Assembly (NCBI GenBank): GCA_947502405.1
Contig: CANMZT010000005.1
Coordinates: forward strand, 124,001 to 188,000
Reading direction: 5' to 3'
Length of the DNA: 64,000 nt
Source: an uncultured Algibacter sp.
Lineage (GTDB): Bacteria; Bacteroidota; Bacteroidia; Flavobacteriales; Flavobacteriaceae
Part shown: piece by piece, positions 11,708 through 32,487 of the stretch
Layout: each line of letters begins with the position of its first letter
Numbering within the stretch: the first letter of the stretch is position 1
Notes under the pieces: model-generated
Told to the model about the DNA's origin: nothing
The model's database searches: none
What the model saw: the letters and a program-made list of their open reading frames with translations, nothing else
Translations under genes and position numbers: made by a program

Positions 11708-11736
11708 GCGGAGAAAGAGGTAAGTGAACCTCTTTC
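11708..11736. other. Left attachment site (attL) with core inverted repeat
   Basis: GCGGAGAAAGAGG (11708-11720) matches the tRNA-Ser 3' end. GAAAGAGGT (11713-11721) and ACCTCTTTC (11728-11736) form a perfect 9-bp inverted repeat around a 6-bp centre, the layout of a tyrosine-recombinase core site. The left half is chromosomal, the right half element-derived. Confidence 0.75.
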
Positions 11737-11780: not shown

Positions 11781-11799
11781 GGTCACCTAATAGGTCACC
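11781..11799. repeat. Left arm-type integrase repeat
   Basis: GGTCACCTAATAGGTCACC contains two GGTCACC heptamers 12 bp apart. It matches 18 of 19 bases with 32282-32300 near the other border, in the same orientation. This is the pattern expected for arm binding sites of an integrase or its accessory factor. Confidence 0.7.
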
Positions 11800-11827
11800 T
11801 TTATACCTTGTAGTAAAGATAAGGAAT

Positions 11828-12016
11828 TTACTTGATTAATCCTTGTACTTTACTGATTTCAAAGCCCATAAAGTCGCAAAATTCTTCGATAGTAACTAAC
11901 TGATGAGCTTCTTTGTTAAGGCGTTCTTTAATCGCTTTGATTATTGTTCTGCCATAACGCTCACTCTTTCCTGTTACCACTTGCACGTCTTTAGGGTAAA
12001 TACAGATTCTACTCAT
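11828..12016 (-). CDS. Small conserved protein at island left end, candidate directionality factor
   Basis: 62 residues, basic, with no membrane segment. It reads ICIYPKDVQVVTGKS near the start and LVTIEEFCDFMGFE near the end, a layout like the compact helix-turn-helix proteins common beside Bacteroidota mobile elements. I recognise the type but not a named family. It is the gene closest to the left attachment site and about 30 bp inside the GGTCACC arm repeats. Size and place fit an excisionase or recombination-directionality factor; this is an inference. A simple repressor is the main alternative. Confidence 0.65.
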   Translation of the reverse strand: MSRICIYPKDVQVVTGKSERYGRTIIKAIKERLNKEAHQLVTIEEFCDFMGFEISKVQGLIK

Positions 12017-13840: not shown

Positions 13841-14281
13841 TTAGTGGTCGTGATTTGAATGGTCATCACTTTTAGTTTCACCAGACTGATTCATCATCAT
13901 TTCGTGGTCGTATTGACAACAACCTGGTAAATCTTTATAGGCTTCTTCACTTCCTGCAACTTTTTCAGTATCATAACCTGATGCTGCGATAGCATTATGG
14001 ATTGCCATTGCATCGGTTTTTGTATCATCAAAAGACACATCAATCTTCTTTTTATCGACATCCCAATTGGCACTTGCAACACCTTCAACACCGTTAGCTG
14101 CTTTTTCGATAGTGTTTTTGCACATACCGCAATTACCTCTTACTCCAAAAGACAAGTCAGTCATTACTATATCTTTTGAAACTTCAGTAGTTGTTGTTTC
14201 TGTTTCTTTTTTGGTTTCGTTTTTACAACATGAAAAAACTACTGCTGCTATTACAGCTACACTTAAAATTACTTTCTTCAT
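13841..14281 (-). CDS. Periplasmic HMA-domain lipoprotein (metal chaperone)
   Basis: 146 residues. The N-terminus is a lipoprotein signal ending in FSCC (Cys18/19). Residues 38-105 form a heavy-metal-associated domain with the copper-binding pair Cys51 and Cys54 (NCGMCKN). The tail holds GCCQYDHEMMM and a His/Asp-rich end, giving further metal ligands. It probably buffers or hands Cu(I) to the CusCBA pump in the periplasm. It is the last gene of the minus-strand metal block, 36 bp after the CusB-like adaptor, and has a terminator behind it. Confidence 0.88.
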   Translation of the reverse strand: MKKVILSVAVIAAVVFSCCKNETKKETETTTTEVSKDIVMTDLSFGVRGNCGMCKNTIEKAANGVEGVASANWDVDKKKIDVSFDDTKTDAMAIHNAIAASGYDTEKVAGSEEAYKDLPGCCQYDHEMMMNQSGETKSDDHSNHDH

Positions 14282-14317
14282 TTTTTTAAAATTTAATTGT
14301 TATTACTTAATTTATTA

Positions 14318-16093: not shown

Positions 16094-16574
16094 TTTGCAA
16101 ACGATTAATCATAGCTTTCATTTCTTCTATTTCCTTTTTTTGTGCTTTAATAATATCCTCCGCTAATTGTTTTACTTCTGGGTCTTTTATATCTGCTCTT
16201 TCACTTGTTAAAATGGCAATAGAATGATGTGGTATCATCGCTTTCATCCAAAGTACATCACCAACTGTAGATTTTTGGTCACGTACTAATCCTAAAGCAA
16301 TAGCAAAAAGTGCTATACTTCCTATCACAATACCCATATTTTTCTTTTTGTCTTTATACATATTCTTCATAAAGAAAAACATAATTAAAGCCATTGTTGA
16401 GATACCTAAACAAACCATATAAAATCGTGTTAAACTAAACCATACGTGGTCAAATTCATAGGTGTTTAAGTACATTGTGATATACATTGCAACAAATGAT
16501 GAGCCTAACATTAAAAAGAATTTAGTGTAATTGCTCATTCCGTTTTCTTTGTTTTTGTGTTTTTGCGTGTTCAT
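16083..16574 (-). CDS. DUF305-containing membrane protein
   Basis: 163 residues. Three probable membrane helices (about 18-36, 48-68, 80-96) are followed by the DUF305 signature MIPHHSIAILTSERADIKD, which places a His pair next to an amphipathic helix. DUF305 proteins are common in copper and other metal-resistance clusters and are thought to bind metal or peroxide in the periplasm; the mechanism is not known. The gene overlaps the CusB-like gene, so co-translation is likely. Confidence 0.85.
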   Translation of the reverse strand: MNTQKHKNKENGMSNYTKFFLMLGSSFVAMYITMYLNTYEFDHVWFSLTRFYMVCLGISTMALIMFFFMKNMYKDKKKNMGIVIGSIALFAIALGLVRDQKSTVGDVLWMKAMIPHHSIAILTSERADIKDPEVKQLAEDIIKAQKKEIEEMKAMINRLQNEE

Positions 16575-16602
16575 AATATTTAATTTTAGTGGTTATAATT
16601 GT

Positions 16603-17331
16603 TTAATTAATTAACATAATACAAGCCATAACAATCATAATGGCATTTTCTATAAATGTAGCTTCTGTCATAGGCAACTTTAGAGCAGTACCTAAACAAG
16701 CACATCGTATTGACTTTTTATCCAAGAGTGTTTTTGTTACTCCAATAGTTGTAATACCTAATACAACAAGTGTTATTATTAAAGCTATATTGACTTCAAA
16801 ACGCATTAAGAACATTAATCCTAAAGCTGTTTCAATAAATGGATAAACCCAACCATAAACAGGTACTCTTTTTGCTAATGGGTCATACATTCTAAAAGAA
16901 TCAGGAAATCCTTTTAAATCTAACATCTTAAAGAAGCTAAACACGATATAGAATAAGCCCATAAAATCAAGCATAAATTCGTTCCAACTCCAATTTTTAT
17001 AATGTAATAACACACTTGCTGTTGCTATATAAAAGATGATAAGCAAAAGTGGTTTTAGCTGTTGGAATTTGCTTTTTTCTTCTACGGTTTCAGTAGCAAT
17101 TGTTGAAGATGAAAATACATTACGTTCTTGCTTTTCAGATAAAGTATATTTTTCTGGCAATGCGTTTTTTAGAGTTTCGGTTTCAATATGTTGCTTCATT
17201 GTTACTTCTGCTTCACTTTTTTCAAGGTTTACAGAAACATTTGTAACGTGTTCTAATGCGCCTAAATTCTTTTCTACGGAAGCCTTACAGTTATTGCAAG
17301 TCATTCCTGTTATTTTGTATGTATGTTTCAT
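16603..17331 (-). CDS. HMA domain fused to MauE/DoxX-like membrane domain
   Basis: 242 residues. Residues 1-66 form a heavy-metal-associated domain with Cys12 and Cys15 (GMTCNNC). Residues 95-242 contain four probable membrane helices of the MauE/DoxX type, with two Cys in the last part (IRCACLGT) that could be redox-active or metal-binding. Such fusions occur in Bacteroidota copper and mercury loci. The likely role is metal handling or thiol redox in the inner membrane. It overlaps the upstream lipoprotein gene by 4 bp. Confidence 0.85.
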   Translation of the reverse strand: MKHTYKITGMTCNNCKASVEKNLGALEHVTNVSVNLEKSEAEVTMKQHIETETLKNALPEKYTLSEKQERNVFSSSTIATETVEEKSKFQQLKPLLLIIFYIATASVLLHYKNWSWNEFMLDFMGLFYIVFSFFKMLDLKGFPDSFRMYDPLAKRVPVYGWVYPFIETALGLMFLMRFEVNIALIITLVVLGITTIGVTKTLLDKKSIRCACLGTALKLPMTEATFIENAIMIVMACIMLIN

Positions 17332-18053
17332 TGTTTTGGTAGTTTTAATGTTATATTATTATTAAAAAGTAAATCATCAATATGACCAGCAAAAGCATTA
17401 TCATCTGTTTTGAAGTGCATATGCATATTGGTAGTATGATGTGTGAAAATTGCTTTATGTTTTGTAGAATAGAACCCTATAATTTGAACTTCTTGATTTT
17501 GTAAAGTTCCATTTAAACCCGACTCTTTATGCTTTTTATGATTATGTATAGTATCACCATCTTTCCAATTAATGACGTGCCAATCTAATGAGGCTATTGA
17601 ACCTTCTAACAAAAATGGAAATGGCATATCTGTATTAATTCCATTACTCCCAGCTAACTCATAAATTAGTTCTTCTAAATCCTTTTTTGTCTTTATGTTT
17701 CTGATTGGAAATGTAACCCATTCTTCAACTTCAGCATACACTAATAAAGATGCTTTTAGATTGTAAGCGTCTCTGAATTGCAAACTACTATCAACCACAA
17801 AACTGTTAATCGGCTTACTGTTAAATATTTGTATTTCACCTTTAAGATTATCTACAGCACCAAGAGCGTATAGATACTTTTTTTCTGAAAGTGTATCTAA
17901 ACTAATTACTGGTTGAATATTACCAAACATAATAGTTCTCAATGCTCCTGCATATTGTACCTCTACTGGATTCTTCTCTTTACTTTTCTCTTGACACGAG
18001 AAGATAAAAAGCGTTAACAGAAATAGTGTTGCTATATATTTTGATTTATTCAT
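17328..18053 (-). CDS. Acetolactate-decarboxylase-like lipoprotein in the metal block
   Basis: 241 residues. The signal ends at lipobox Cys20 (FIFSC). The body follows the alpha-acetolactate decarboxylase (AlsD/BudA) pattern: LGAVDNLKGEIQIF (Glu region) and IIGFYST, then HMHFKTDDNAFAGHIDD, which keeps the three zinc His (211, 213, 224) of that enzyme. An extra His-rich loop (IHNHKKHKES, 169-178) sits before the last strands. AlsD is normally a cytoplasmic or secreted fermentation enzyme; a periplasmic lipoprotein form between CusC and the HMA protein suggests reuse of the Zn site for metal binding. The family call is firm, the role is inference. Confidence 0.8.
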   Translation of the reverse strand: MNKSKYIATLFLLTLFIFSCQEKSKEKNPVEVQYAGALRTIMFGNIQPVISLDTLSEKKYLYALGAVDNLKGEIQIFNSKPINSFVVDSSLQFRDAYNLKASLLVYAEVEEWVTFPIRNIKTKKDLEELIYELAGSNGINTDMPFPFLLEGSIASLDWHVINWKDGDTIHNHKKHKESGLNGTLQNQEVQIIGFYSTKHKAIFTHHTTNMHMHFKTDDNAFAGHIDDLLFNNNITLKLPKQ

Positions 18054-18056
18054 TGC

Positions 18057-19280
18057 TTAATTGGTTAAATAATTGATGATTGTACTTTGAACATAATAGT
18101 TCTTAATTGATTCTATTTGGCTCATTTGAAACTTTAGTTGTAATTCTTGTATGTCTAAAACATCATTAAAGTCAATCGTGCCAGTTTCATAGCTTTTTAT
18201 CAGTATTTGTTCTGCGTCTTTAACTTGTTTTATGTTCTTGATTGCTGTTTTATGACTTATTCTTGCTGATATACGCTCATTTACTGCCTTGTCTAACAAT
18301 GTTTCCAAAGTATTTAGTATTTCTTGTTTTTGAGATAGAATTTCTTGTTGTTCCAATTCATTTTGCTTTGAAATAGATTTGTACTTTTTATTAAAAATTG
18401 GAATGGATACCGAAACCATTGGCATTATAATATCCTTTCCGTTATCACTAAAATTCATATTTGGACGTTCAGCAACATTGATATAATCTAAACCGAAACC
18501 AATCATAGGACTGCTTTCTTTTTGGTTCAATAATTCAGATTGTTCAATAGATGTAAAGAGTTTATCATATTTTAATAACTCTGGGTGCAATGCTAAATTT
18601 TCAGTAGTAGTTTCAAAATCTTCTTTTGGAATCAATAGGTCTTCAACCACATTTACTTCAATATCATTTTCTCTATTTAATAGATTATTTAGCATAGTCT
18701 GTTCTGCTAAAAATTGCTGTTGCAATATATCTTTTAGTTGTTGCAACTCGTTTTGGCGCATTTGCAATCGTAACACATCTACCGCTGATGCTTTTCCAAC
18801 CTCAACAGAGGTTAGTGCCAATGTTTCGTATGTTTCAAGTAGTTTTATATTCTCGCTTAAAACCTCTTGTTTTGCTTTATTTGCGTATAACTTGTAATAG
18901 GATTGTGATACCGATGCCATTAATTTTCGTTTGGCAATAACTATATCTTCGTATTTAGCATCTGCCAATGCACTCACATAATTTTCTCTTGATGTAATTG
19001 TACCAAACCAAGGCAACATTTGTTTTGCAGACACCTTAAAACGTTGCGCTCCTGTTCGTGTTTCTGGCTCACTTATAAAGTAACCTACACCAAATTCGGT
19101 ATTAGGAATTGTATTGACCTCATTTACTTTTTCTGAAACTCTTTTGTACTGTAAATCGAACTTTTGAATCTCTGGATTATTAGCTAATGCTTCGTCAATT
19201 AAAGTTTCTAATTGTTGCGCATTTCCTTTGAGAGCAAAGAGAATAGAAAAAAGAAAAAAGATTGTTTTTATATGTTTCAT
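18057..19280 (-). CDS. cusC: TolC/CusC-type outer-membrane efflux protein
   Basis: 407 residues with a signal peptide ending in KGNAQ, then the long helical hairpins of the TolC family (ALANNPEIQKFDLQYKRV, LQMRQNELQQLKDI). It forms the outer-membrane exit duct for the RND pump. It overlaps CusA by 4 bp and is followed 3 bp later by the acetolactate-decarboxylase-like gene. No lipobox is visible, unlike E. coli CusC. Confidence 0.92.
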   Translation of the reverse strand: MKHIKTIFFLFSILFALKGNAQQLETLIDEALANNPEIQKFDLQYKRVSEKVNEVNTIPNTEFGVGYFISEPETRTGAQRFKVSAKQMLPWFGTITSRENYVSALADAKYEDIVIAKRKLMASVSQSYYKLYANKAKQEVLSENIKLLETYETLALTSVEVGKASAVDVLRLQMRQNELQQLKDILQQQFLAEQTMLNNLLNRENDIEVNVVEDLLIPKEDFETTTENLALHPELLKYDKLFTSIEQSELLNQKESSPMIGFGLDYINVAERPNMNFSDNGKDIIMPMVSVSIPIFNKKYKSISKQNELEQQEILSQKQEILNTLETLLDKAVNERISARISHKTAIKNIKQVKDAEQILIKSYETGTIDFNDVLDIQELQLKFQMSQIESIKNYYVQSTIINYLTN

Positions 19281-22200
19281 TTTGATGCTCTTTTTAGTTG
19301 AACTTCTGCTTTCCAGCTGTATAAAACTGGTACTACAAATAAGGTTATTAAGGCAATTAACATTCCGCCAAAACTTGGTATTGCCATAGGAATCATAATA
19401 TCGCTACCACGACCTGTTGAGGTTAGTATTGGTAATAATGCTAATATGGTTGTAGCTGTTGTCATTAAGCAAGGTCTTATTCGTTTTTCTCCTGCTTCTA
19501 CAACAGATGCTCTTACTTCCTTCTTATTATCTGGTGCATTTCTATCGAACGTTTGTGTTAAATACGTTGCCATTACCACACCGTCATCGGTTGCAATTCC
19601 AAAAAGTGCAATAAAGCCCACCCAAACAGCAACACTTAAATTAATTGGATGCATCTGAAATAAATCACGTAGGTTTTCGCCAAAGAAATTGAAGTTTAAA
19701 AACCAATCTTGACCATAGAGCCATATCATTAGAAATCCGCCTGCAAATGCTACTGCAATACCTGTAAAAACCATTAATGATGTACCTACAGAACGGAATT
19801 GAAAATATAGAATTAAGAAAATGATTGCTAATGCTAAAGGCACAACAACCGATAAGGTTTTTTCTGCTCTTAATTGATTTTCGTATGTTCCTGTAAATTG
19901 ATAGTTAATACCTTTTGGTACTACTAATTCGCCATTATCAATTTTTTCTTGAATTAAGGCTTGCGCATTTTCTACAACGCTTACTTCCGCAAAGCCATCC
20001 ATTTTATCAAATAATACATAGCCTACTAAAAAGGTATCTTCACTTTTAATGACTTGTGGACCTTGTTCGTATTTTATTGTTGCCAATTCGCTTAAAGGAA
20101 CTGGATTGCCTTTTTCTACTGGTACATAAATCTGTTTTAAATCGGTTGGATTAGCCCTTAATTCTCTTGGGTAGCGCACACGTACTCCATAACGCTCTCT
20201 ACCTTCAACGGTTTGGGTTAATACCATTCCGCCAACTGCAACTTTAAGTACATCTTGTACATCTTGTATTGAAATACCATAACGTGCAATCTTTTCTCTA
20301 TCAATATCAATAAGCAAATAAGGTTTCCCTACAATACGGTCTGCAAAAACAGCTTCATCTTTTACACCTTCGGCTTGTTTTAAAATATCCTCTAACTGTA
20401 CACCAAACGCTTCAATTTGTTTTAAGTCTTGACCTTTAACCTTTATTCCCATAGGTGCACGCATACCAGTTTGAAGCATTACCAATCGTGTTTCAATAGG
20501 TTGTAGTTTTGGTGCAGAAGTGACTCCAGGTAACTTGGTGACTTTTACTATTTCGTTCCAAATATCGTCTGGTGATTGTATTTCTGGTCGCCAATTACGG
20601 TAGAACTCGCCATTATCGTCTGGGATTAATTGAGAGCTTTCGACTGCGCTCAAGGTGACATTTTTAGTATTATTTGGATTTGTGATGAATCTTCCATCTT
20701 TCAATTCAAACAAACCATCTTCATTGACTTTATAACGTTGACGTTCTCCGTTTTCATTAAGCATATATTCTGGTTTGTACTGAATGACATTCTCATACAT
20801 TGATAGTGGTGCTGGGTCTAAAGCCGATTCTGTACGACCTGCTTTACCAACTACTGTTTTTATCTCTGGAATACTTGCTACAGCCATATCTAATTGTTGT
20901 AAAACCCTTTTATTTTCTTCTACTCCTGAATGTGGCATTGAGGTTGGCATCAACAAAAAAGAACCTTCATTTAATGATGGCATAAACTCTTTACCTGTGT
21001 TTTTCATAATAAAAAACCCAGCAATAACAATAGTTGTTGGTACAGATAAAAACAATAGTTTATTATCTAAACACCATCTTAAAATTCTTGTATAATATTT
21101 AATGAATAATGAGAAAACACCTAATAAGCCAAAGCAAATAATACTTACAAAAATGAGATTCCAAAAGATACTTTTATCTACACCTAATGGTCGCCAATAT
21201 TCAGCTAACAGGAATACGATTGCCGATGCTGAAATGATGATGTTAATAAGATTAGCTTGTTTATCTGTTAACTTATTTTGTTGGTTAAGCAATGCTGTAA
21301 TTCCAAAAGCAATTAATATCAATCCTAACCAATAACCATAAATTATAGCAACGATACCTAATGCTATTAAAACACCATTTAAAACATATTTAAAATTACT
21401 TTTAATGGATTTTTTTCTGAATAAAAATGCTGCGAATGGTGGTATTAAAAATAAGGCTACAATTATAGAAGCTGTTAAAGCGAATGTTTTGGTAAATGCT
21501 AATGGTCGAAATAATTTTCCTTCAGCACCAATCATTGTAAAAACAGGAATAAAACTGATAATGGTTGTCATCACAGCTGTTACGATTGCGCCTGAAACTT
21601 CGGCTGTTGCATTGTAAACCACATTATTTATAGGCAGCTTTTCTTTATTTTCATCTAAATGCCTAATGATGTTTTCTGAAAGAATAACACCAACATCTAC
21701 CATAGTACCAATAGCAATAGCGATACCAGATAAAGCCACAATATTCGCATCGACACCAAAGAGTTTCATTGCTATAAATACCATTAAAACCGCAACAGGT
21801 AATAAGCCAGAGATTAATACAGAAGCACGTAAATTAAATACCATAATGATAATGACTAAAATGGTAATTAGTATTTCTAACGTTAGGGCTTCATTAAGTG
21901 TACCTAAAGTTTCTTGAATCAATTCCGTTCTATCATAAAAAGGAACAATAGTTACTTGTGACGTTCTTCCATCTGCCAATACTTTTGAAGGTAATCCTGC
22001 GCTTAATTCATTAATTTTCTCTTTAACGTTATTGATGACTTCCATTGGATTCGCACCATAACGAGCCACCACAACAGCACCAACAACTTCTGCACCTTCC
22101 TTATCTAAAAGACCTCTTCGTGTTGCAGGACCTAATGATACTTTACCTATATCTTTAATTCTGATAGCTGTATAGTCTTCTGAAGTAACTACAGCATTTT

Positions 22201-22984
22201 CTATATCTGAAATGGATTTTACATAACCCAAACCACGTACTAAATATTCGGCTTGATTAATTTCTAAAGTTTGCGCACCGATGTCTTTATTACTTTCCCT
22301 AACCGCTTTTACAATATGATGTAAGCCAATATTGTATTGTCGCATTAATTCAGGATTTACATCTACTTGATATTCTTGTACGTAACCACCAATAGACGCT
22401 ACTTCCGATACACCGCTTGCAGATGATAAGGCATACTTTACATAGTAATCTTGTATGCTTCGTAATTCGTGTAAATCCCAACCACCAGTTACATTACCGC
22501 TTTCATCACGACCTTCTAATGTGTACCAAAATATTTGTCCTAAACCTGTTGCATCTGGACCCAAAGCAGGTTTAACACCATCAGGTAATAAGCCACTTGG
22601 TAATGAATTGAGCTTTTCTAATATTCTACTACGACTCCAATAAAACTCTACATCTTCTTCAAAAATGATATAGATGCTTGAAAAGCCAAACATTGACGAG
22701 CTACGAATGGTTTTTACTCCTGGAATACCCAATAAAGATGTTGTCAATGGATAGGTGATTTGGTCTTCTATATCCTGTGGTGAACGACCATCCCACTTGG
22801 TAAAAACAATTTGTTGATTTTCACCTATATCTGGAATAGCATCTACTGCAACAGGATTACTTGGTAAAAATCCTATATCCCAATTAAAAGGTGCGTTTAC
22901 TGTTCCCCATCCTATAAAAAGGACAAGCATTAAAACTGCAACGAGTTTATTTTCTATTAAAAATTTGATGCTTTTATTTAGCAT
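19277..22984 (-). CDS. cusA: CusA/CzcA-type heavy-metal RND efflux pump
   Basis: 1235 residues, about 190 longer than E. coli CusA. N-terminal and C-terminal RND halves are complete, including the acidic membrane residues in IGTMVDVGVIL and IATDDGVVMAT. The extra length is mainly two insertions: extra membrane helices after LFRKKS (about 530-625) and a periplasmic insert around 735-810 rich in Asn and Asp. Met residues occur in VMLQTGMRAPMG, close to a CusA copper-binding Met, but the Met of RYGM is Ile here, so Cu/Ag versus divalent metals is open. The periplasmic insert contains a short dispersed repeat in frame. Confidence 0.95.
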   Translation of the reverse strand: MLNKSIKFLIENKLVAVLMLVLFIGWGTVNAPFNWDIGFLPSNPVAVDAIPDIGENQQIVFTKWDGRSPQDIEDQITYPLTTSLLGIPGVKTIRSSSMFGFSSIYIIFEEDVEFYWSRSRILEKLNSLPSGLLPDGVKPALGPDATGLGQIFWYTLEGRDESGNVTGGWDLHELRSIQDYYVKYALSSASGVSEVASIGGYVQEYQVDVNPELMRQYNIGLHHIVKAVRESNKDIGAQTLEINQAEYLVRGLGYVKSISDIENAVVTSEDYTAIRIKDIGKVSLGPATRRGLLDKEGAEVVGAVVVARYGANPMEVINNVKEKINELSAGLPSKVLADGRTSQVTIVPFYDRTELIQETLGTLNEALTLEILITILVIIIMVFNLRASVLISGLLPVAVLMVFIAMKLFGVDANIVALSGIAIAIGTMVDVGVILSENIIRHLDENKEKLPINNVVYNATAEVSGAIVTAVMTTIISFIPVFTMIGAEGKLFRPLAFTKTFALTASIIVALFLIPPFAAFLFRKKSIKSNFKYVLNGVLIALGIVAIIYGYWLGLILIAFGITALLNQQNKLTDKQANLINIIISASAIVFLLAEYWRPLGVDKSIFWNLIFVSIICFGLLGVFSLFIKYYTRILRWCLDNKLLFLSVPTTIVIAGFFIMKNTGKEFMPSLNEGSFLLMPTSMPHSGVEENKRVLQQLDMAVASIPEIKTVVGKAGRTESALDPAPLSMYENVIQYKPEYMLNENGERQRYKVNEDGLFELKDGRFITNPNNTKNVTLSAVESSQLIPDDNGEFYRNWRPEIQSPDDIWNEIVKVTKLPGVTSAPKLQPIETRLVMLQTGMRAPMGIKVKGQDLKQIEAFGVQLEDILKQAEGVKDEAVFADRIVGKPYLLIDIDREKIARYGISIQDVQDVLKVAVGGMVLTQTVEGRERYGVRVRYPRELRANPTDLKQIYVPVEKGNPVPLSELATIKYEQGPQVIKSEDTFLVGYVLFDKMDGFAEVSVVENAQALIQEKIDNGELVVPKGINYQFTGTYENQLRAEKTLSVVVPLALAIIFLILYFQFRSVGTSLMVFTGIAVAFAGGFLMIWLYGQDWFLNFNFFGENLRDLFQMHPINLSVAVWVGFIALFGIATDDGVVMATYLTQTFDRNAPDNKKEVRASVVEAGEKRIRPCLMTTATTILALLPILTSTGRGSDIMIPMAIPSFGGMLIALITLFVVPVLYSWKAEVQLKRASK
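20632..20660. repeat. Short GC-rich dispersed-type repeat inside cusA
   Basis: On the gene strand it reads TGTCACCTTGAGCGCAGTC then GAAAGCTCTCA, with TTGAG...CTCAA able to pair. It encodes VTLSAVESS in frame, in a region absent from E. coli CusA, and is more GC-rich than its surroundings. I recall near-identical strings in intergenic repeats of Flavobacteriia, not verified. Confidence 0.4.
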
Positions 22985-23092
22985 TGGCTTTGATAATTAA
23001 ACAATTAGACAATGGTGTTACGAAAACACCGAATACAGCAAATTATCCTTACGACATACAGCCATAGGATAACACAGTCTATTGTTTAAAAA

Positions 23093-23506
23093 TCAAATTA
23101 AATAAGTCTCGTCAATCTTGAAGATTTGCCTGACTACGAGTGGTGGTTTGTATTCTTCGTAAGAAGATACATTGTTATCTAACCCTTCGAAGAGGTTAAT
23201 ATAGGTATGAACAAATGAAGCTATGAATACTTGTTGCTCAAACGTAATTTTATCGAATTGTAGTTGTAGTTCGTCTTGACCTTCAATAGCTAATTGCTTG
23301 TCATCACAACAATTCTTCTTTGTGATACTGCAACCTTCAGTAGATGGTTTTTCCATTTCCATTCCGCAACCTTTTGCTTTATGGAAAATAGCAGTTTCCA
23401 CTAAAGTATCTCCACAATAATGCATATTTACAGTAAACGACAATGTAGAAAATAACACTACGAAAGCCATCAACAAAGACATTATTTTATGTAATACTTG
23501 CTTCAT
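23093..23506 (-). CDS. HYC_CC_PP-type secreted protein of metal loci
   Basis: About 137 residues from the Met at 23506; an upstream Met at 23536 is open but would bury the signal peptide, so the later start is preferred. A signal/membrane segment (LLMAFVVLFSTLSFTV) is followed by MHYCGD, then KKNCCDD, then YKPPLV, the three motifs that name the HYC_CC_PP family. These proteins are found beside metal efflux genes in Bacteroidota; the Cys and His probably bind metal. It lies between the P-type ATPase and cusA in the same direction. Confidence 0.82.
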   Translation of the reverse strand: MKQVLHKIMSLLMAFVVLFSTLSFTVNMHYCGDTLVETAIFHKAKGCGMEMEKPSTEGCSITKKNCCDDKQLAIEGQDELQLQFDKITFEQQVFIASFVHTYINLFEGLDNNVSSYEEYKPPLVVRQIFKIDETYLI

Positions 23507-23568
23507 ACTAAATACAAAGGTATAAAATTTTAACAACTACTAATTTTGTTTAACAGAAGGTTAGCTAT

Positions 23569-25521
23569 TTAACTCCATTTCATTCGCTGTAATCTAACAG
23601 CATTTAAGATTGCCAATAATGCTACTCCAACATCAGCAAATACAGCTTCCCACATTGTAGCTAAACCACCTGCTCCCAGAATCAATACTATCACTTTAAC
23701 ACCAAAAGCTAAAATGATATTCTGCCAAACTATTTTTCGTGTAGAACGACTTATTTTGATAGCTCTAACTACTCTTGAAGGTTGGTCGGTTTGAATAATA
23801 ACATCTGCTGTTTCTATTGCGACATCACTTCCTAAACCACCCATTGCAATACCAACATTACTTGCTGCTAAAACTGGTGCATCATTAATACCATCGCCTA
23901 TAAAAGCTACTTTATTTTCAGGATTCTTCTTTAAAATTTCTACTTCGTTTAATTTATCTTCTGGTAGTAAACCACCTTTAGCATTTTCAATATTCAATTC
24001 TTTTGCAACTTGTTGCGTAATGGAATCTTTATCACCGGAAAGCATCATTAAATTTTTAATACCTACTTTGTGTAATGCTGTAATTGATTCTTTTGCATCT
24101 TCCTTTAATTCATCTGCTATCACTACATAACCTGCAAATTGATTATCGATTGCAACTAAAACGATAGATTCTACAATAGATTCCGTTTCCGTTGGTACTT
24201 CAATATTATTGGCAGTCATTAAGGCTTTATTACCTACTAAAACTGTTTTACCATTTATAATACCCTTTAAGCCTTTACCTGCAATTTCAGAAACATCTTG
24301 TGCTTCAAACTCTTCACCATCTGCTTTATACTCTAAAATTGCTTTTGCAATTGGATGCGTGGATTGCTCTTCCATCGCCATTAAGTATTGCATAAATTCG
24401 GTTTCATTCCAACCAATTGCTTTCACTTCTTTGATTTTAAAAACACCTTTGGTAACCGTACCTGTTTTGTCCATTACCAAAGTATTTATTTTGGTCATTG
24501 CATCGAGAAATGATGCGCCTTTAAACAATATTCCGTTTTTTGAAGCTGCTCCCAATCCACCGAAATAACCTAATGGAATTGAAATCACCAACGCACAAGG
24601 ACAAGATATTACCAAGAATATTAAGGCTCTGTATAACCAATCTCTAAAGACATAATCATCTACAAAAAAGTAAGGAATGAATGTTACACCAATAGCCAAG
24701 AATACAACGATTGGTGTGTATATACGAGCAAACTGTCTGATGAATAATTCTGTTTTAGATTTACGTGCTGTTGCATTCTGAACCATATCCAAAATCCGAG
24801 CAATGGAACTATCTTTAAATTCTTTGGTAGTTTCTATTTCAATTACACCTTCCAAATTAATGCTGCCCGCAAAAACTTTTTCACCTTTTGCAAGCGTATC
24901 AGGTTTACTTTCGCCTGTTAATGCAGCTGTATTAAATGAACCTTTGTCGGAAAGTAGAATACCATCCAATGGAATTTTTTCTCCCACACGGACTTGTACT
25001 TTTTCTCCAATTTCGACATTTTCAGGACTTACAGATACATAATCATTGTTACGATAAACCAAAGCTTCATTTGGTCGTACATCAAGCAATGCTTTTATAT
25101 TTCCTTTTGCTCTGTTTACTGCTGCATTCTGAAATAATTCTCCTACTGCATAAAATAGCATTACTGCCACACCTTCTGGATATTCACCAATAATAAATGC
25201 ACCAATTGTAGCAATAGACATTAAAAAGAACTCTGTGAAAACATCGCCTTTTATAAGGCTTCTCCATCCTTCTTTGATAACTGGAAACCCAACTGGAATA
25301 TATGCTATAGTGTACCAAACTACGCGAACCCATCCTTTAAATTGAGGAATTGCATCAAAATAATCTACAGCAATACCTACAATAAGGATTGTAAAACTTA
25401 TGATGGCAGGAATGTATGTTTTGAATGCACTACCATCTCCGTGGTCGTGACCATCATCGTGAGAATGTTGTTCTTCTGAATTTGGTTTTAAATCTCTTAA
25501 ATTGACTTTCTTTTTTTTCAT
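23569..25521 (-). CDS. P1B-type heavy-metal ATPase, Zn/Cd/Pb-like
   Basis: 650 residues. Phosphorylation Asp351 is in DKTGT, the actuator loop TGES is at 202-205, the membrane metal site CPC at 307-309, HP at STHPIAKA, and the hinge GDGINDAP is present. The last helices contain a Lys (FGVKVIVL) and an Asp (FADVGVAL), which fits the Zn/Cd/Pb group (P1B-2) rather than the copper group. The N-terminus lacks an HMA domain but is His/Asp-rich (18-30). It exports divalent metal to the periplasm, while CusCBA handles the outer steps. It overlaps DUF3703 by 4 bp. Confidence 0.93.
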   Translation of the reverse strand: MKKKKVNLRDLKPNSEEQHSHDDGHDHGDGSAFKTYIPAIISFTILIVGIAVDYFDAIPQFKGWVRVVWYTIAYIPVGFPVIKEGWRSLIKGDVFTEFFLMSIATIGAFIIGEYPEGVAVMLFYAVGELFQNAAVNRAKGNIKALLDVRPNEALVYRNNDYVSVSPENVEIGEKVQVRVGEKIPLDGILLSDKGSFNTAALTGESKPDTLAKGEKVFAGSINLEGVIEIETTKEFKDSSIARILDMVQNATARKSKTELFIRQFARIYTPIVVFLAIGVTFIPYFFVDDYVFRDWLYRALIFLVISCPCALVISIPLGYFGGLGAASKNGILFKGASFLDAMTKINTLVMDKTGTVTKGVFKIKEVKAIGWNETEFMQYLMAMEEQSTHPIAKAILEYKADGEEFEAQDVSEIAGKGLKGIINGKTVLVGNKALMTANNIEVPTETESIVESIVLVAIDNQFAGYVVIADELKEDAKESITALHKVGIKNLMMLSGDKDSITQQVAKELNIENAKGGLLPEDKLNEVEILKKNPENKVAFIGDGINDAPVLAASNVGIAMGGLGSDVAIETADVIIQTDQPSRVVRAIKISRSTRKIVWQNIILAFGVKVIVLILGAGGLATMWEAVFADVGVALLAILNAVRLQRMKWS

Positions 25522-25880
25522 TTAATATCTAATAATTTTTCAATCTCATTTGGAATAGGCATTCGTTTTAATGGTGGCACGTTTGCTCCACCTGTATTCC
25601 CAAGTGGAACGTGGTTTATAAATGATTTCCAGCCACCCACAAGCAACCTTGTGATTTGACCTATTACTTCTTTAGTATCTTTTTGTCTAAATCCAAATTT
25701 TAGCATTAACCAATGTGAATAGGTATGTTCTATTGGGTAAGATTGACCTATTATATGACTACGCTCTAAATGATACCAAGCATTACTATACTGCTTATTT
25801 TCTAAATATAATCTGTATTGTTTTAATTCTTCCTCATAAGCCTGTTTAAGAGGTTTAGGTATTTTAGTATTAAACTTCAT
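25518..25880 (-). CDS. DUF3703 family protein
   Basis: About 120 residues from the Met at 25880; an upstream Met at 25922 adds a hydrophobic stretch that does not look like part of the family. The core has HLERSHIIGQ, HTYSHWLMLKFG and GNTGGANVPPLKRMPIP, the conserved DUF3703 pattern. Conserved His residues suggest metal binding. DUF3703 genes are usually found next to metal-resistance genes; the function is unknown. It sits between the Fur-type regulator and the ATPase. Confidence 0.8.
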   Translation of the reverse strand: MKFNTKIPKPLKQAYEEELKQYRLYLENKQYSNAWYHLERSHIIGQSYPIEHTYSHWLMLKFGFRQKDTKEVIGQITRLLVGGWKSFINHVPLGNTGGANVPPLKRMPIPNEIEKLLDIK

Positions 25881-25936
25881 ATCCACTAATTTCAGATAAA
25901 AGTAGGTTAATAGTAAGTGCAATGGAAGTGCATTTG

Positions 25937-26350
25937 TTATCCACTACATTTATCACAAATACCTTTTACTACCAAGTTTACATTCTCTGAAACAAAGCCA
26001 TCAGGCACTTTAATTTGAGGTATTTTATGGTCTGTTAAGCAAATGGTTTCATTGCAATTGTTGCAATGGAAATGTAAGTGTAAATCAGTTTTTATATCAC
26101 AATTACATCCCTTTTCGCATAACGCATATTTTGTAATCCCTGTACCATCGTCTATTTGATGCACAATATCCTTTTCCTCGAAAGTTTTAATAGTTCTGTA
26201 TAAGGTAGTTCTATCTGCTTTTTCAAAAGCGTTTTCAATATCACTTAATGTTACCGCTATCTCTTTTTCTGCAAGAAACTTATAAATTAACATACGCATT
26301 GCTGTAACACGAATATTTTTTGACTCTAATACTTGTACTATAGTTTCCAT
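25937..26350 (-). CDS. Fur-family metalloregulator
   Basis: 137 residues. The N-terminal winged helix (to about 85) has the usual ADRTTLYRTIKTFEEKDIV recognition region. The C-terminal part has the His/Cys-rich dimer and metal region (DLHLHFHCNNCNETICL) and a closing CDKC. This could be Fur-, Zur- or Per-like; the two CxxC pairs fit a structural zinc site. It lies 2 bp after the TonB receptor and ahead of the ATPase, so it probably controls this block in response to Zn or another metal (inference). Confidence 0.93.
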   Translation of the reverse strand: METIVQVLESKNIRVTAMRMLIYKFLAEKEIAVTLSDIENAFEKADRTTLYRTIKTFEEKDIVHQIDDGTGITKYALCEKGCNCDIKTDLHLHFHCNNCNETICLTDHKIPQIKVPDGFVSENVNLVVKGICDKCSG

Positions 26351-26352
26351 AA

Positions 26353-28539
26353 CTAATCGTCGTCTTCGTTTCCAAATGGTTTAATAATTAGTCCTACACT
26401 AAATATAAAACCATCTGTAGGTGCATAAATCTCTGGAAAAACAGGATTTTCGTGTGGTGGTAAAACCAAAGGTGAAAACCTGCTTTGTCTTCTGTCTGTA
26501 AAGTTTTCAAAATTTACAAATACACTTCCTAATTTAAAGTTACGCATAACCAATAAACCCATAGTTACAAAATCTGTGGTTTCAGTACCATTAGATAAAA
26601 ACTGTTTTCCTGTATAGTAGGTTTCATAACCTATTCTCCACTTATCAGATTCGTACATTAAAACACTACCTGCATTATGTTTTGCGGTTAATGGCTTCTG
26701 TGGATTACCAGGTAAATAATTTAGTTTGGTATCAATAAGCGCATAGTTTAAAAACCATCTAAAGCCTTTGTATGTAAATTTTATATTTGTTTCTGCTCCT
26801 TTACTAAAAATTTCATCTGGTGCATTTTCAAACTGAAATAATCCGTTATCTGTTGAATTTAAAAGCAATCCATCATTAATAGCAGTAACATAGAATAATT
26901 GATTTACAGAAAAACCAATCTCATCAGATAAGCGGGTTTGATAGTTTACATCGAAATTAACACCATAAGAACGTTCTGCATCTACTGTAGATTTATCTAT
27001 TGCAAGTACATTTTCAAAATTGATATACTCTGCTTCCTCTGTGAAAATATCTGGAATTTTATACCCTAAACCTCCACCAATTCTACTTGAAAATCCACTA
27101 TTATTCTTATATAATAATGAAATTCTTGGTAATGGGAAGAATCCGAAATCGTTATTATAATCTGCTCTTAACCCTGTTTCTAATATCCAATTATCTGAAA
27201 TATCGTAGATATTATTTGCAAAAGCTCCAAAGGTCACATCTTTTTGGTCACGTTGTAGCGGTGCATTATCGTTTTCATCAAAGTTTGATGTATATAGATT
27301 AGCTCCAATTATCCAATCCGTTTTTTCTGATGCTTTGGTATATGTGATTTCAGTAAACGTGTTTGTTTGCTGACCATCAAAATTAAAATCAGGAACAGTT
27401 AAGTTTCTATCGAAAAATGAAATACTATTTTTAAATTGTAACGAGCTAATAGAATCTAATTGCGTTTGATACACCAATTGACTACTTAATCGTTTTGAAT
27501 TGTTTTCTTCAGTATATTGATGTATGCCATTTTCTCCACTTTCAATTTTGGTAATATCTCCACCAATTCTATCGTCGTACGTTCCGTTTAATCCAAACCA
27601 AAGTGTTGTTTTATCTGATGGATAATAAAACAGTTTAGGATTAAAAGAAATTGATGTTGTTTTTGGTAGGTTGCTAAAACCATCATCTTCTGGGTCGTAT
27701 GCTTTTTGATAATGACTAGAACCATAAAGTGAAACACCAAATTTTTCATTTCGTTTACTGTAAAAGATATTGGCTGTACTTCCTAACGCTTGTGTCTGCG
27801 TAAGCATTATATCTAATGCAGGTTCTTCGTCTGGTGTTTTAGATACCATATTTACTAATCCTGCAATAGCACCTCCACCGTAAAGTGTTGATGAACTTCC
27901 TTTAATAATCTCAAATTGTTGTAAGTCTAAAGGTGGTATTTGTAAAATACTTAATCCACTTGAAAAACCACCATATAATGGAAATCCATCTCTTAAGAGC
28001 TGTGTATACCTACCATCCAATCCTTGAATACGAATATTGGTACTCCCACTACTTAATGATGTTTGTTGCATCTGTATTCCTGTACTTTCACGAAGCACCA
28101 TAGAAATATTAGTAGGGTTCATTATTGCTTTTTCTCCTAATTCCTCTGCACCGATAAACTCGATACGTGTAGGTATTTTTCGTACTGTTCTTGTGCTTCT
28201 TGTAGATTGCAGTACTACAGCATCTAATTGATTTCCGCCCTCTTTTAGTTTAAACACTAATTTATTATTACTTGGAATTTGAATTGTTGTCTCAAATGTT
28301 TCAAAACCTAAAAAGGAAATTATTATTTGATGCTGACCGTCTGGTATTTCTGTAAATTCTGCAATACCATCAAAATTAGTTACAGCACCTTTTTCTAATG
28401 CTTCAAAGTAAACCGTAGCCCCCATTAAAGGCTCGTTTTCAGCCTCTGTAATAACTTTTATTTGTATATCTGATGTTTGTGCCTTTAGCGATAGGCAAAG
28501 TATTAAAATGAGCTTAATGCTCAATATGTATTTATTCAT
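26353..28539 (-). CDS. TonB-dependent outer-membrane receptor
   Basis: 728 residues with signal peptide, a carboxypeptidase-regulatory-like domain (about 22-95: AENEPLMGATVYFEALEKG), a plug domain (about 115-240: GSTNIRIQGLDGRY, GSSSTLYGGGAIAGLVN) and a beta-barrel ending in KPFGN with a short acidic tail. No SusD partner follows, so it is more like a metal or siderophore receptor than a glycan one. It is next to a Fur-type regulator inside a metal-efflux island. Why an import receptor sits with exporters is open; it may take up a metal chelate, or secrete or sense. Confidence 0.9.
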   Translation of the reverse strand: MNKYILSIKLILILCLSLKAQTSDIQIKVITEAENEPLMGATVYFEALEKGAVTNFDGIAEFTEIPDGQHQIIISFLGFETFETTIQIPSNNKLVFKLKEGGNQLDAVVLQSTRSTRTVRKIPTRIEFIGAEELGEKAIMNPTNISMVLRESTGIQMQQTSLSSGSTNIRIQGLDGRYTQLLRDGFPLYGGFSSGLSILQIPPLDLQQFEIIKGSSSTLYGGGAIAGLVNMVSKTPDEEPALDIMLTQTQALGSTANIFYSKRNEKFGVSLYGSSHYQKAYDPEDDGFSNLPKTTSISFNPKLFYYPSDKTTLWFGLNGTYDDRIGGDITKIESGENGIHQYTEENNSKRLSSQLVYQTQLDSISSLQFKNSISFFDRNLTVPDFNFDGQQTNTFTEITYTKASEKTDWIIGANLYTSNFDENDNAPLQRDQKDVTFGAFANNIYDISDNWILETGLRADYNNDFGFFPLPRISLLYKNNSGFSSRIGGGLGYKIPDIFTEEAEYINFENVLAIDKSTVDAERSYGVNFDVNYQTRLSDEIGFSVNQLFYVTAINDGLLLNSTDNGLFQFENAPDEIFSKGAETNIKFTYKGFRWFLNYALIDTKLNYLPGNPQKPLTAKHNAGSVLMYESDKWRIGYETYYTGKQFLSNGTETTDFVTMGLLVMRNFKLGSVFVNFENFTDRRQSRFSPLVLPPHENPVFPEIYAPTDGFIFSVGLIIKPFGNEDDD

Positions 28540-28587
28540 TGAATTATAATTGTAATTAACTAAATAATTGATTTAAATCGTATTACT

Positions 28588-28905
28588 TTAGCTTATTACT
28601 TGTGGCGGTTGCCAAATGTTGGAAAGGAAATTGTACCTATAGATAGATTGATATGTAGAAATTAACTCTGTTGAAATTTCAATATTGAGTTTTAAATCAA
28701 ATGTCTTGATTGGTACGTAAGTAATTGTCATACCGCAACAATTGCAAATACAAGTTACAGGACAAGAATCGTCGCTATCTTCTTGATGGTTGTGATTAAC
28801 ACTTATTTCGTCTTGATGCTTGTCTTCTATGTTTTGACCATCAGAACAAGGCTTTGCTGAAAGCAATAGTATTATTAAGGATAATATGATTGTTAAAAAT
28901 TTCAC
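28588..28905 (-). CDS. Small Cys/His-rich secreted protein (DUF6660-like)
   Basis: 105 residues. The signal peptide (MKFLTIILSLIILLLSAKPC) is followed by a His/Asp/Glu-rich stretch (VNHNHQEDSDD) and the Cys cluster CPVTCICNCCG. This composition points to a periplasmic or surface metal binder. The DUF6660 label is recalled, not checked. It is the first gene of the minus-strand metal block, 48 bp before the TonB receptor. Confidence 0.72.
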   Translation of the reverse strand: MKFLTIILSLIILLLSAKPCSDGQNIEDKHQDEISVNHNHQEDSDDSCPVTCICNCCGMTITYVPIKTFDLKLNIEISTELISTYQSIYRYNFLSNIWQPPQVIS

Positions 28906-28955: not shown

Positions 28956-30467
28956 TTAAGCCACAACTTTAGCTTTCTCCTTTAAAGTTTCAAGATGCTT
29001 TACCATATTGCTTTTACACCATAACTCTCTTGCTAATTTTGGTGGGTGTCCTATCGCTTTAGATAGCTCCTCTTCCATAATAGCTTCGACTACATCCACA
29101 TATTCTTCTGTTGTAGAAATACTATCGTGGATTGTAAATATAGGTACATCTGGATATTCTTCTGATATACGCTTTGCTATAATATTAATCATTAAGTAAC
29201 TTTCAATACTCTGCAATAATCTTGGAAGTAATGTTTTGTCTTTACTTTTAAGTTGTCTAAACACCTCATATACGTATGGGAACATCTCCTTAAACATCTT
29301 CTTTGGTTTTGCATCTTCTTGACCCAAGAATCTATTATCTGTAAATAGCACTTGGAATACTGCTGTTTTAACCTCTTTACGGTTAGCAAATGTTTCTCCC
29401 AATTCCACACCAAAACGGTGCTCTAAAAACTCATAAAGCGTACCACTCACCACAAGATTTATATACTGACTAAACCCACTACTCATAAGTGCTTTATCAA
29501 TATCTCCTAACATAATGTAAGAATCAGTATCGTGGATTTTGATATGTGATATGTTTAATCTATCATCAATCCTACCATCAACCTTATAAATATTATCATT
29601 TATATTATTATAAGAAGAAAATAGCGACTTTTTGGGCTTATCGAATGTGATTGATAACTCTCTTGGTGTATTTGGCTCATTTTTTTGCTCAATCCAAAAC
29701 GAGCGACTCAACAATATAGTGCTTAAATAAGGTTGACTATTTTTTATATCAATCGAAATTAACTTTTGGCTATCATACGTTACCGCATTTCTGATGACAC
29801 TTCGCATATTAGTAAGGTTTGAATGAAAGCGATACACATTATCATCGTGCAACAAATAGTATTCTTCACGACTAATTTTTTCTGCGCTAATTTTTGCGTG
29901 GTTTAATTGTGATATAGGTTCTTTGAATTTTTTTCGACTTCTGTCATAGTCTTTTAACTGCTCGTTATTATCTTTTAATTCAAATTCTTGTGCTAAAAAT
30001 TCATTGACGTAATCAATATCAATTTCTAACTTGTCATTAAACCACTTTGTTAAATAGTCAAGGTGCTTAACAGATGCGTCTCTATTGTTTCGTTCTACTT
30101 TTAGTTTTCTATAAAACGTAAAATCTGTTACAGCTGTGGAAGTAATTGCTGTATTGTAGTCATCTACTAAACGATACCCTTTGGATTTAAAGCCTGGTAT
30201 ATATTGTCCATCAGTCTCAATTATTTTTAAGTCGTGCAATAGATAATCTATGTACTCCTTATAATTGGATATTTTGTCTTGTAAGAGTTTAGAGTTTAAT
30301 GGTACAAAGCCATCAAACATTAAATCTTTGTTATAAAGAGGTAGCGCATTTATTAAGTGAATAATATAAAGTAGCTTATCTCTTTTGCATCCGTATTTTT
30401 TAAAATTCGGTGGATTATCATACATCAATTGGTCGACATCCAAATTCTCTGGTATGTATAATCTCAT
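28956..30467 (-). CDS. Polymerase-like replication protein of the island (family A / single-subunit RNAP palm)
   Basis: 503 residues. Residues 1-105 look like a winged-helix domain (FVPLNSKLLQDKI, YIPGFKSKGYRL). Residues 205-480 carry an ordered set of polymerase motifs: an Arg-rich lead-in (SNLTNMRSVIRNA), motif A at LISIDIKNSQPYL with Asp240, motif B as Arg363-x3-Lys367-x3-Phe371-x3-Phe375, and motif C at IFTIHDSIS with His447-Asp448. Spacing and order match family A DNA polymerases and T7-type RNA polymerases. No 3'-5' exonuclease is present. It overlaps the helix-turn-helix gene by 1 bp. I infer a replicase or initiator-primase of the excised element; activity is unproven. Confidence 0.7.
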   Translation of the reverse strand: MRLYIPENLDVDQLMYDNPPNFKKYGCKRDKLLYIIHLINALPLYNKDLMFDGFVPLNSKLLQDKISNYKEYIDYLLHDLKIIETDGQYIPGFKSKGYRLVDDYNTAITSTAVTDFTFYRKLKVERNNRDASVKHLDYLTKWFNDKLEIDIDYVNEFLAQEFELKDNNEQLKDYDRSRKKFKEPISQLNHAKISAEKISREEYYLLHDDNVYRFHSNLTNMRSVIRNAVTYDSQKLISIDIKNSQPYLSTILLSRSFWIEQKNEPNTPRELSITFDKPKKSLFSSYNNINDNIYKVDGRIDDRLNISHIKIHDTDSYIMLGDIDKALMSSGFSQYINLVVSGTLYEFLEHRFGVELGETFANRKEVKTAVFQVLFTDNRFLGQEDAKPKKMFKEMFPYVYEVFRQLKSKDKTLLPRLLQSIESYLMINIIAKRISEEYPDVPIFTIHDSISTTEEYVDVVEAIMEEELSKAIGHPPKLARELWCKSNMVKHLETLKEKAKVVA

Positions 30468-30730: not shown

Positions 30731-30854
30731 TCTATATAAAAAATATTAATAGGTATTAACTACCTGATTTCTAACATACAATATACGCCAAAATCACCTT
30801 TTTTAAATGAAAAGTTATTGACAGTTATTAACGAAATAGATGAACTTTTTAACA

Positions 30855-30882
30855 AGAAACTACCTGTATTACAGGCAGTTTC
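30855..30882. promoter_or_regulatory. Hairpin between integrase and HTH gene
   Basis: GAAACT-A-CCTGT and ACAGG-C-AGTTTC pair over 11 bp with one mismatch and a 3-nt loop. It follows the integrase stop and precedes the HTH gene. AACTACCTG recurs about 100 bp away at 30757. With no clear T-run it may be an operator or origin element rather than a terminator. Confidence 0.45.
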
Positions 30883-30913
30883 ACGTATAAATCACTATTT
30901 TTAGATTAAATTG

Positions 30914-32167: not shown

Positions 32168-32300
32168 GGTGACCTTTAATTATACATTAATTTACAAAAT
32201 ATCGAGGTCTTTTAATTAATTTATATTGCTGATTTATAAACAGTTATAAACAATTAGGTGACCTGATTAAGGTTTAAAAAAGGTCACTTAATAGGTCACC
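32168..32300. repeat. Right arm-type GGTCACC cluster
   Basis: GGTCACTTAATAGGTCACC at 32282-32300 mirrors the left-end repeat. Inverted GGTGACC copies lie at 32257-32263 and at 32168-32174, the last only 4 bp upstream of the integrase ATG. Confidence 0.7.
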
Positions 32301-32346
32301 AACAGAATGGTATTTAATACATATTTTGATGTTTTGGGTAAAATAA

Positions 32347-32399: not shown

Positions 32400-32487
32400 T
32401 GGCGGAGAAAGAGGGATTCGAACCCCCGGAGGTGTGACCCTCAACAGTTTTCAAGACTGCCGCATTCGACCACTCTGCCATTTCTCC
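32400..32487 (-). tRNA. tRNA-Ser(UGA)
   Basis: 88 nt including an encoded CCA. The acceptor stem is GGAGAAA/TTTCTCC, the D-arm region TGGCAGAGTGGTCGAATGC, the anticodon TGA in CTTGAAAAC, then a long class-II variable arm and the T-loop GGTTCGAATCC. The 3' CCA (32400-32402) lies in the element-side sequence. It is the integration target of the island. Confidence 0.95.
32402..32414. other. Right attachment site (attR) core
   Basis: GCGGAGAAAGAGG, identical to 11708-11720, forms the 3' end of tRNA-Ser. A reconstructed attB would join the left-border terminator directly to this tRNA end. Confidence 0.8.

Follow-up and report, generated by a model that had tools for sequence, protein, structure and literature searches.

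A winged-helix, family A-like polymerase encoded in tRNA-targeted integrative elements of Bacteroidota

The window, which is the whole stretch of 64,000 nucleotides of uncultured Algibacter sp. DNA that was analysed, carries a gene that almost certainly encodes a family A-like polymerase with a winged helix and that lies in a tRNA-targeted integrative element. Within the PolA/T7-RNAP superfamily the protein is a divergent member, its sugar-gate position being occupied by Gln and its motif C reading HDS. Its main job is, on balance, probably to initiate or perform the replication of the element once excised, a process that we infer. The coordinates of the gene, its motifs and the surrounding island are given in Table 1.

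Table 1. Features of the polymerase gene and of the tRNA-Ser island, in positions of the window.
Feature	Position	Strand	Remarks
Winged-helix / family A-like polymerase (P0001), complete	28956..30467	-	503 aa
Winged-helix domain, codons 1-112	30132..30467	-	Model secondary structure; Foldseek matches weak
Helical region, probable thumb, codons 113-205	29853..30131	-	Model secondary structure
R213 in R-x-H-[ST]-N-L-T motif	29829..29831	-	Invariant in alignments
Motif A (IDIKNSQPYL), D240 and Q245	29724..29753	-	Asp 27/27 and 103/103
Motif B, R363-x3-K367-x3-F371-x3-F375	29343..29381	-	Single helix in model; hhalign to PolA motif B
Motif C (TIHDS), H447-D448	29121..29135	-	Alignment; hhalign to PolA HDE
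Excisionase-like HTH_17 protein (Xis), 87 aa	30467..30730	-	HTH_17 E 1.6e-7
Integrase-Xis intergenic region, 183 bp	30731..30913	.	Hypervariable among relatives; hairpin (read by eye)
Tyrosine integrase, 416 aa	30914..32164	-	Phage_integrase, Phage_int_SAM_5, Arm-DNA-bind_5
GGTGACC/GGTCACC repeats, integrase end	32255..32302	.	Probable arm-type integrase sites; role inferred
GGTGACC/GGTCACC repeats, far end	11781..11799	.	Match integrase-end repeats
tRNA-Ser(TGA), integration target	32400..32487	-	Adjoins integrase
att core GCGGAGAAAGAGG, 13 bp, within tRNA 3' end	32402..32414	.	
Second att copy, island far end	11708..11720	.	Island 20.7 kb in all
62-aa far-end gene	11828..12016	-	Also at far end of L101 and L110 elements; coordinates by hand
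249-aa far-end gene	12226..12975	+	Kept in same-clade elements; without Pfam or PHROG match
Cargo: metal-efflux and related genes	13841..28905	-	P-type ATPase, TonB receptor and Fur by Pfam

Searches with the polymerase sequence returned no Pfam family at E ≤ 1, no PADLOC match and no PDB-sequence match. The best PHROG match (E 0.24) and an NCBIfam match to ribosomal S4 (E 0.03) were judged to be due to chance, nothing significant being found in these two libraries. When searched with the whole protein, 21 of the 395 genomes of the class gave a match at E ≤ 1e-3; with a profile as query, 18 of the 395 genomes of the phylum were positive (own genome counted both times). The own genome contains a host PolA gene separately from the island polymerase. 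From GTDB genomes, 80 loci with a homologue were kept (of 150 confirmed), the hosts being Bacteroidota by title except for one Rhizobium MAG and one record titled 'bacterium', and 62 further loci with a homologue were taken from IMG/VR. Most of the 142 polymerase ORFs in these related loci encode 390-540 aa. In-frame tails resembling homing endonucleases were seen in the homologues of L112 (9971-12028; NUMOD1 and a GIY-YIG match below the Pfam cut-off) and L139 (1506-3302; NUMOD4 and HNH), and in L152 a separate NUMOD4/HNH ORF (11487-11876) overlaps the end of the polymerase gene. Nei-Gojobori dN/dS was 0.04-0.18 against nine relatives of 47-96% identity, in some of which synonymous sites were close to saturation; as judged from these ratios, the polymerase gene is under purifying selection.

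Motifs A, B and C, described in the original prediction, are present in the ORF translation at the residues quoted there. Their conservation was assessed in two sets. The first comprised 27 homologues (window included) and was gathered with the whole protein as query, without selection for motifs; the phage record LR756503, the match of which is identical to that of LR756501, was omitted. R213, D240, S244, K367, P397, E422 and D448 were found in 27/27 sequences, Q245 in 26/27, H447, Q419 and S449 in 25/27 each, and R363 in 23/27, two sequences having Lys. Since this set was gathered by the whole protein and not by the motifs, the motifs are not due to chance. The second set was derived from the 142 ORFs by dropping those outside 370-620 aa or at least 85% identical to a sequence already kept; 106 sequences (window included) were left after these filters, and removal of L072, L139 and L143 by hand resulted in 103. 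Here R213, D240, Q245, Y345, K367, Q419, E422, H447 and D448 were invariant (103/103) and S449 was present in 95/103. At position 363, Arg was found in 81 sequences, Lys in 19 and Asn in 3, while position 371 held Phe (57), Tyr (27) or Leu (11) and position 375 (K+8) Phe (88) or Tyr (14). The conservation of motifs A and C is partly built into this second set, because 102 of the 103 sequences came from loci retrieved by patterns around motif A or motif C, the remaining one being a second copy in the L115 flank; R213, Y345, K367, Q419 and E422 lie outside the retrieval patterns. D240, K367 and D448, the residues that were named in the original prediction as those by which it could be refuted, are invariant in both sets. 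A catalytically dead DNA-binding regulator, for which nothing speaks but the winged helix and the overlap with the Xis gene, is scarcely credible in view of this invariance and of the purifying selection.

An AlphaFold2 model was built from the 103-row alignment, with a pLDDT of 87.4, a pTM of 0.86 and residues 268-322 disordered. Comparison with the PDB using Foldseek yielded 86 chains at E ≤ 1e-3; all 50 listed were family A DNA polymerases at a probability of 1.00, among them the Taq, Bst, M. smegmatis, Plasmodium apicoplast and phage G20c enzymes, and for the matches listed TM-scores to PolA were low (0.26-0.37 on the query). Against BFVD, 47 matches at E ≤ 1e-3 were obtained, of which 18 carried a DNA polymerase name and 4 the name 'uncharacterized', 25 being unnamed. 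In the two closest of these, the same fold was found over the full length at TM 0.59-0.78: A0A516L5C2 (unnamed, 409 aa) and A0A8D9FR19 (403 aa, 'Putative DNA polymerase I', uncultured marine phage); to go by the models, these two viral genes are probable members of the polymerase family. The palm domain that had been predicted was thereby found, as part of a family A polymerase domain, in both the PDB and the BFVD search. No 3'-5' exonuclease domain was present in the model ahead of the polymerase part, in line with the exonuclease-free enzyme proposed beforehand.

Profile comparison using hhalign gave, against a PolA profile, a probability of 38% and an E of 3.3e-4 (single comparison), with motif B, the Gln helix and motif C aligned. 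Against a profile of 16 T7-type RNAPs the probability was 0.7% and the E 0.087, which is not significant, and integrase control profiles gave probabilities of 0.1-0.2%. The 38% is modest, and the family assignment is carried by the fold search, that is, by a predicted structure. PF00476 (DNA_pol_A) was matched by 0/103 members at E ≤ 0.01. The original prediction had assigned the protein to family A DNA polymerases or T7-type RNA polymerases; by fold and profile family A is favoured over the T7-type enzymes, though motif C is RNAP-like.

The active-site residues are of mixed character. Both catalytic Asp (motifs A and C) and the R-x3-K of family A motif B are present, the Arg being replaced in the sequences with Lys or Asn mentioned above. 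In common with family A DNA polymerases (Pol I, Taq, T7 gp5), the protein has the predicted fold, the motif A Asp, the motif B R-x3-K, an aromatic residue at K+8, a Gln between motifs B and C and the H-D of motif C. It differs from them in failing DNA_pol_A, in the absence of the exonuclease domain, in the winged helix added in front, and in two substitutions. At D+5 of motif A, the family has Gln (Q245) where 21/21 aligned PolA sequences have Glu and T7 RNAP has Gly; in motif C, it has HDS where 21/21 aligned PolA sequences have HDE, HDS being also the sequence in T7 RNAP (H811-D812-S813). The R-x-H-[ST]-N-L-T motif is, we assume, the likely counterpart of the PolA GRLSS motif.

A primase or T7-like RNA polymerase, making RNA (primers or transcripts) for the element, is an improbable alternative. 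It would accord with the HDS motif C, with the loss of the PolA-invariant Glu at D+5 and with the Ser at D+4 of motif A, which is the same as in T7 RNAP. It would also accord with Tyr345: the equivalent position seems to be His in PolA and Tyr in T7 RNAP, so that by motif order Tyr345 may be the counterpart of Y571. Against it stand the PolA profile, which scored better than the T7-type one, the absence of any RNAP from the 50 PDB matches listed (of 86), and position K+8, which is mostly Phe in the family (88/103) and Tyr in aligned PolA and T7 RNAP. In T7 RNAP, the Tyr at K+8 senses ribose.

The N-terminal winged helix was modelled with helices at residues 29-45, 59-65 and 69-79 and strands at 83-85 and 97-100. 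The models agree with the region claimed previously (residues 1-105) and extend it to about residue 112. Residues 1-145 modelled alone reached a pLDDT of 91, and Foldseek found 0 PDB matches to them at E ≤ 1e-3. Among the seven best matches, four were 4pql (two chains), 4pt7 and 5kbj, all weak (E 0.12-0.19), with the titles 'DNA binding protein', 'Structure of initiator' and 'Structure of Rep-DNA complex', respectively; the remaining three were ScpAB and LmrR entries. In PMC7145576, 4PT7 is named as the RepA of a staphylococcal plasmid, and a RepA_N initiator is described in an integrated satellite. Between them, the 103 members match nine Pfam families, and RepA_N is not one of these. The likeness of the modelled winged helix to plasmid initiators is weak and suggestive only. 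A usual plasmid Rep was considered and rejected: three tblastn queries against 72,556 plasmid records all found the same single homologue, on a plasmid of 35 kb with its own annotated replication initiation protein.

In the window, the stop codon of the Xis gene overlaps the start codon of the polymerase gene (TAATG). That a tyrosine integrase and an HTH protein accompany the polymerase, as stated in the original prediction, was confirmed by Pfam matches, the overlapping Xis gene lying beside that of the integrase. The integrase lies beside a tRNA gene, the 3' end of which is duplicated 20.7 kb away, and like repeats are found at both termini, as expected of a tRNA-targeted island. A 16-bp att probe allowing up to 3 mismatches gave four matches where 0.05 were expected. 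The copy at the far end differs from the probe at two positions, and two unrelated places near 40.5-40.9 kb differ from it at three each. Besides the cargo listed in Table 1, the island presumably carries an RND pump and membrane-fusion and TolC-like proteins. The 249-aa far-end protein has a counterpart of 40% identity in congener G402, and the ends of the island recur in elements of other genera (L101 and L110).

The tRNA-Ser site was followed in 9 congeners. In G396, of the same genus, a related island separates the two host flanks, which lie about 21.6 kb from each other on a single contig, and six others were read at the site: G402 and G401 have a different integrase, and four have none in the stretch listed. 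In G400, a terminator like that of the window lies directly at tRNA-Ser, but the host genes beyond it are different. No clean empty tRNA-Ser site was found among the congeners read. The site behaves as a hotspot, the integrases of G402 and G401 (L317 and L318) being 61% and 39% identical and accompanied by Xis homologues. The polymerase slot is occupied in G402 by a 218-aa protein without Pfam match and in G401 by a 152-aa protein with HTH_36; a homologue of the polymerase gene is absent from the elements of both genomes at this site.

The same architecture was examined in the 80 genome loci. A related integrase was found in the fetched flanks of 62/80, within 3 kb in 58/80 and within 700 bp in 44/80, and was missing within 3 kb in 22/80. 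Where present within 3 kb, it lies upstream on the same strand (34 loci), downstream and convergent (23) or downstream on the same strand (1). An Xis-like gene at most 400 bp upstream of the polymerase was found in 20/80 loci. A tRNA gene lies at most 1.5 kb from the integrase in 46/58 loci, with its 3' end toward the integrase in 41/46; the targets include tRNAs for Ser, Met, Val, Asn, Asp, Arg, Pro and Lys. The tRNA counts were made by script over all 80 loci, the tRNA tool having covered 50/80. In 12/46 loci, a figure to be read with the many flanks too short to reach the far end, the element is bounded 5.2-13.4 kb away by a repeat that derives from the tRNA and has 13 nt or more; matches of 11 nt, seen in 4 loci, were left out of the att count. 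The repeat of L137 may be a native tRNA-Asn gene pair instead of an att pair. Distances between polymerases and between integrases correlate over 55 polymerase-integrase pairs (Mantel 0.425; reached by 0/999 permutations).

For the cargo of the twelve bounded elements, 75 of the 98 ORFs were scanned jointly; for L127 and L137, six ORFs were scanned one by one, as were three DUF3871 ORFs. Among the matches listed were DpnII-type restriction-modification proteins, methylases, RadC, MerT and PADLOC candidates. In L127 and L137, the two smallest elements, 0/6 further ORFs (≥80 aa) had a Pfam replication-protein match, one matching Fib_succ_major. Restriction-modification genes and candidate defence proteins in the cargo of related elements would suit a reading of the polymerase itself as an anti-phage defence enzyme carried as cargo. 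This is very unlikely: the polymerase has no PADLOC match, phages themselves have homologues, and in most integrase-bearing loci the gene is at the integrase end.

Comparison of near-identical islands points to exchange of the polymerase gene as a module. Between the window and G396, the integrase is 97% identical at the amino acid level, Xis 98% and seven cargo genes 86-96%, versus 63-64% for the polymerase. The corresponding dS is 1.84 for the polymerase, 0.26 for the integrase, 0.18 for Xis and 0.36-0.63 for four cargo genes, and such a difference from the six other genes argues for import of a divergent allele and not for fast evolution in place. In the 45 pairs whose integrases are 90% or more identical, amino acid identity averaged 68% for the winged helix, 65% for the thumb, 90% for the first palm part and 81% for the rest. 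The winged helix and thumb are thus the most variable parts between near-identical islands, which suggests specificity. By these sequence comparisons, the gene has been exchanged between near-identical islands in the way expected if it had its own specificity.

The spacer between integrase and Xis was considered as the origin. It is 48-56% identical versus 89-95% for the integrase gene when the window is compared with G396, L099, L101 and L110, and 92-99% identical in other pairs (L100, L102, L103, L105). Its identity follows that of the integrase gene (Spearman 0.83) and hardly that of the winged helix (0.23). As the spacer was replaced in some pairs but not along with the winged helix, these data argue against it as the cognate site, and this candidate origin, though hypervariable, is unsupported. 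Seven stretches were searched for repeats, and neither an origin nor an iteron array came to light. Of 12 loci tested for overlapping ends, which would indicate a circular contig, none showed an overlap; 7 of the 12 are whole contigs and the other 5 are uninformative.

Homologues also occur in huge phages, in six records of 595-735 kb, two of which share an identical match. Of PolB, PolA and PolIII alpha, only the first was found, as partial matches, in four of the five records searched. The remaining record encodes a PolIII alpha and, in addition, a PolA-like ORF that shares 4 nt with the gene of the homologue. In this last phage, LR756511 (L032:4995-7441), the overlapping ORF has 428 aa and a DNA_pol_A match, so that two family A-type genes are adjacent. 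A role as sole replicase of huge phages was rejected, a PolB (partial) or PolIII alpha being found in 5/5 records searched; given this other replicase, the homologue looks like an accessory polymerase there. An integrase neighbour was found in 4/62 IMG/VR loci. Two conserved neighbours without convincing family match were each present in 36/67 viral loci, and 27/67 contained a member of a cluster represented by a Gp23-like major capsid protein.

The main rival to element replication is accessory synthesis also in the islands. When the element has entered a cell, been excised or been damaged, the enzyme would then fill gaps, repair DNA or convert single strands for it. The bulk of replication would fall to host PolIII, and the winged helix would bind DNA without origin specificity. 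Such a role, which we regard as rather unlikely though well worth weighing, would fit the five huge phages that have PolB or PolIII alpha too (one with the adjacent PolA-like ORF), the small layout without exonuclease, and an AAA_24-type ATPase that adjoins the polymerase in three of the 12 bounded elements, that of L174 resembling Sak4 annealing proteins. It fits less well with the position of the gene by the integrase and Xis, not among the cargo, and with the variability of winged helix and thumb between near-identical islands. In the three elements with this ATPase (L158:6554-8473, L174:7836-9678 and L175:7045-8986), the ATPase forms a pair with a DUF3871 protein beside the polymerase and divergent from it.

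For replication of the element, the following course may be envisaged. The integrase and Xis would excise the island as a circle, and the winged helix would bind a site on the element. At the bound site, the thumb-palm-fingers module would prime DNA, extend it or both, with D240 and D448 holding metal ions and K367 and R363 the nucleotide, and the element would be copied before re-integration. The product would be DNA and not RNA, and binding would be specific to the element. In favour of this course count the fold, the invariant catalytic residues, the place beside the integrase, the modular exchange and the weak initiator likeness of the winged helix. Against it count the origin search without result, the spacer that does not follow the winged helix, the single homologue among the plasmid records, the other replicase in the five huge phages searched, the same-site elements of G402 and G401 that lack a polymerase homologue, the 22/80 loci without a related integrase within 3 kb, the low TM-scores and the modest hhalign probability. 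In keeping with the original prediction, the excised island may thus be copied from an origin bound by the winged helix.

The best reading is that of a putative initiator-polymerase, by which the excised island would be copied in analogy to PolB pipolins. These are PolB-encoding, self-synthesizing integrative elements which share with the island a tyrosine recombinase, att-like direct repeats at a tRNA gene and a polymerase of their own, and with the island elements a variable cargo including restriction-modification genes (PMC7385651). Pipolins have a primer-independent PolB (piPolB), whereas the island has the family A-like polymerase with its winged helix and no piPolB; the island elements were found here mainly in Bacteroidota. 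Phage satellites (PLE with RepA_N; P4 and PICI with primase/helicase) are likewise chromosomal elements with a recombinase, and the RepA_N-type initiator of PLE may be likened to the winged helix of the island (PMC7145576). In the island, a polymerase fused to the winged helix takes the place of the helicase/primase of the satellites. A search of the open literature, outside which subscription papers and bioRxiv largely lie, found no report of a family A polymerase in such integrative elements. The kind of element is known from PolB pipolins (PMC7385651), and the type of polymerase and its fusion are new within the literature searched.

It is possible, and we propose it tentatively, that these islands belong to a widespread, undescribed class of self-replicating Bacteroidota integrative elements with a single-protein replicon. 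In that case, a RepA-like winged helix fused to a minimal family A polymerase would recognise the origin and start DNA synthesis without a separate primase, whole-gene swaps would set the replication specificity of near-identical islands, and the enzyme would have moved between islands and huge phages. A function is thereby proposed for a protein family named by none of the libraries searched (Pfam, NCBIfam, PHROG, PADLOC, PDB), and the family offers a small polymerase to characterise, without exonuclease domain and with an unusual sugar-gate residue. The self-synthesizing mobile elements described in the cited papers use family B polymerases; if the proposal is true, the islands would represent a second way, independent of the first, in which integrative elements have come to carry a polymerase. 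Islands of this type may carry their own polymerase to copy themselves, which, if true, would be part of the explanation for the spread of metal-resistance and defence cargo in Bacteroidota.
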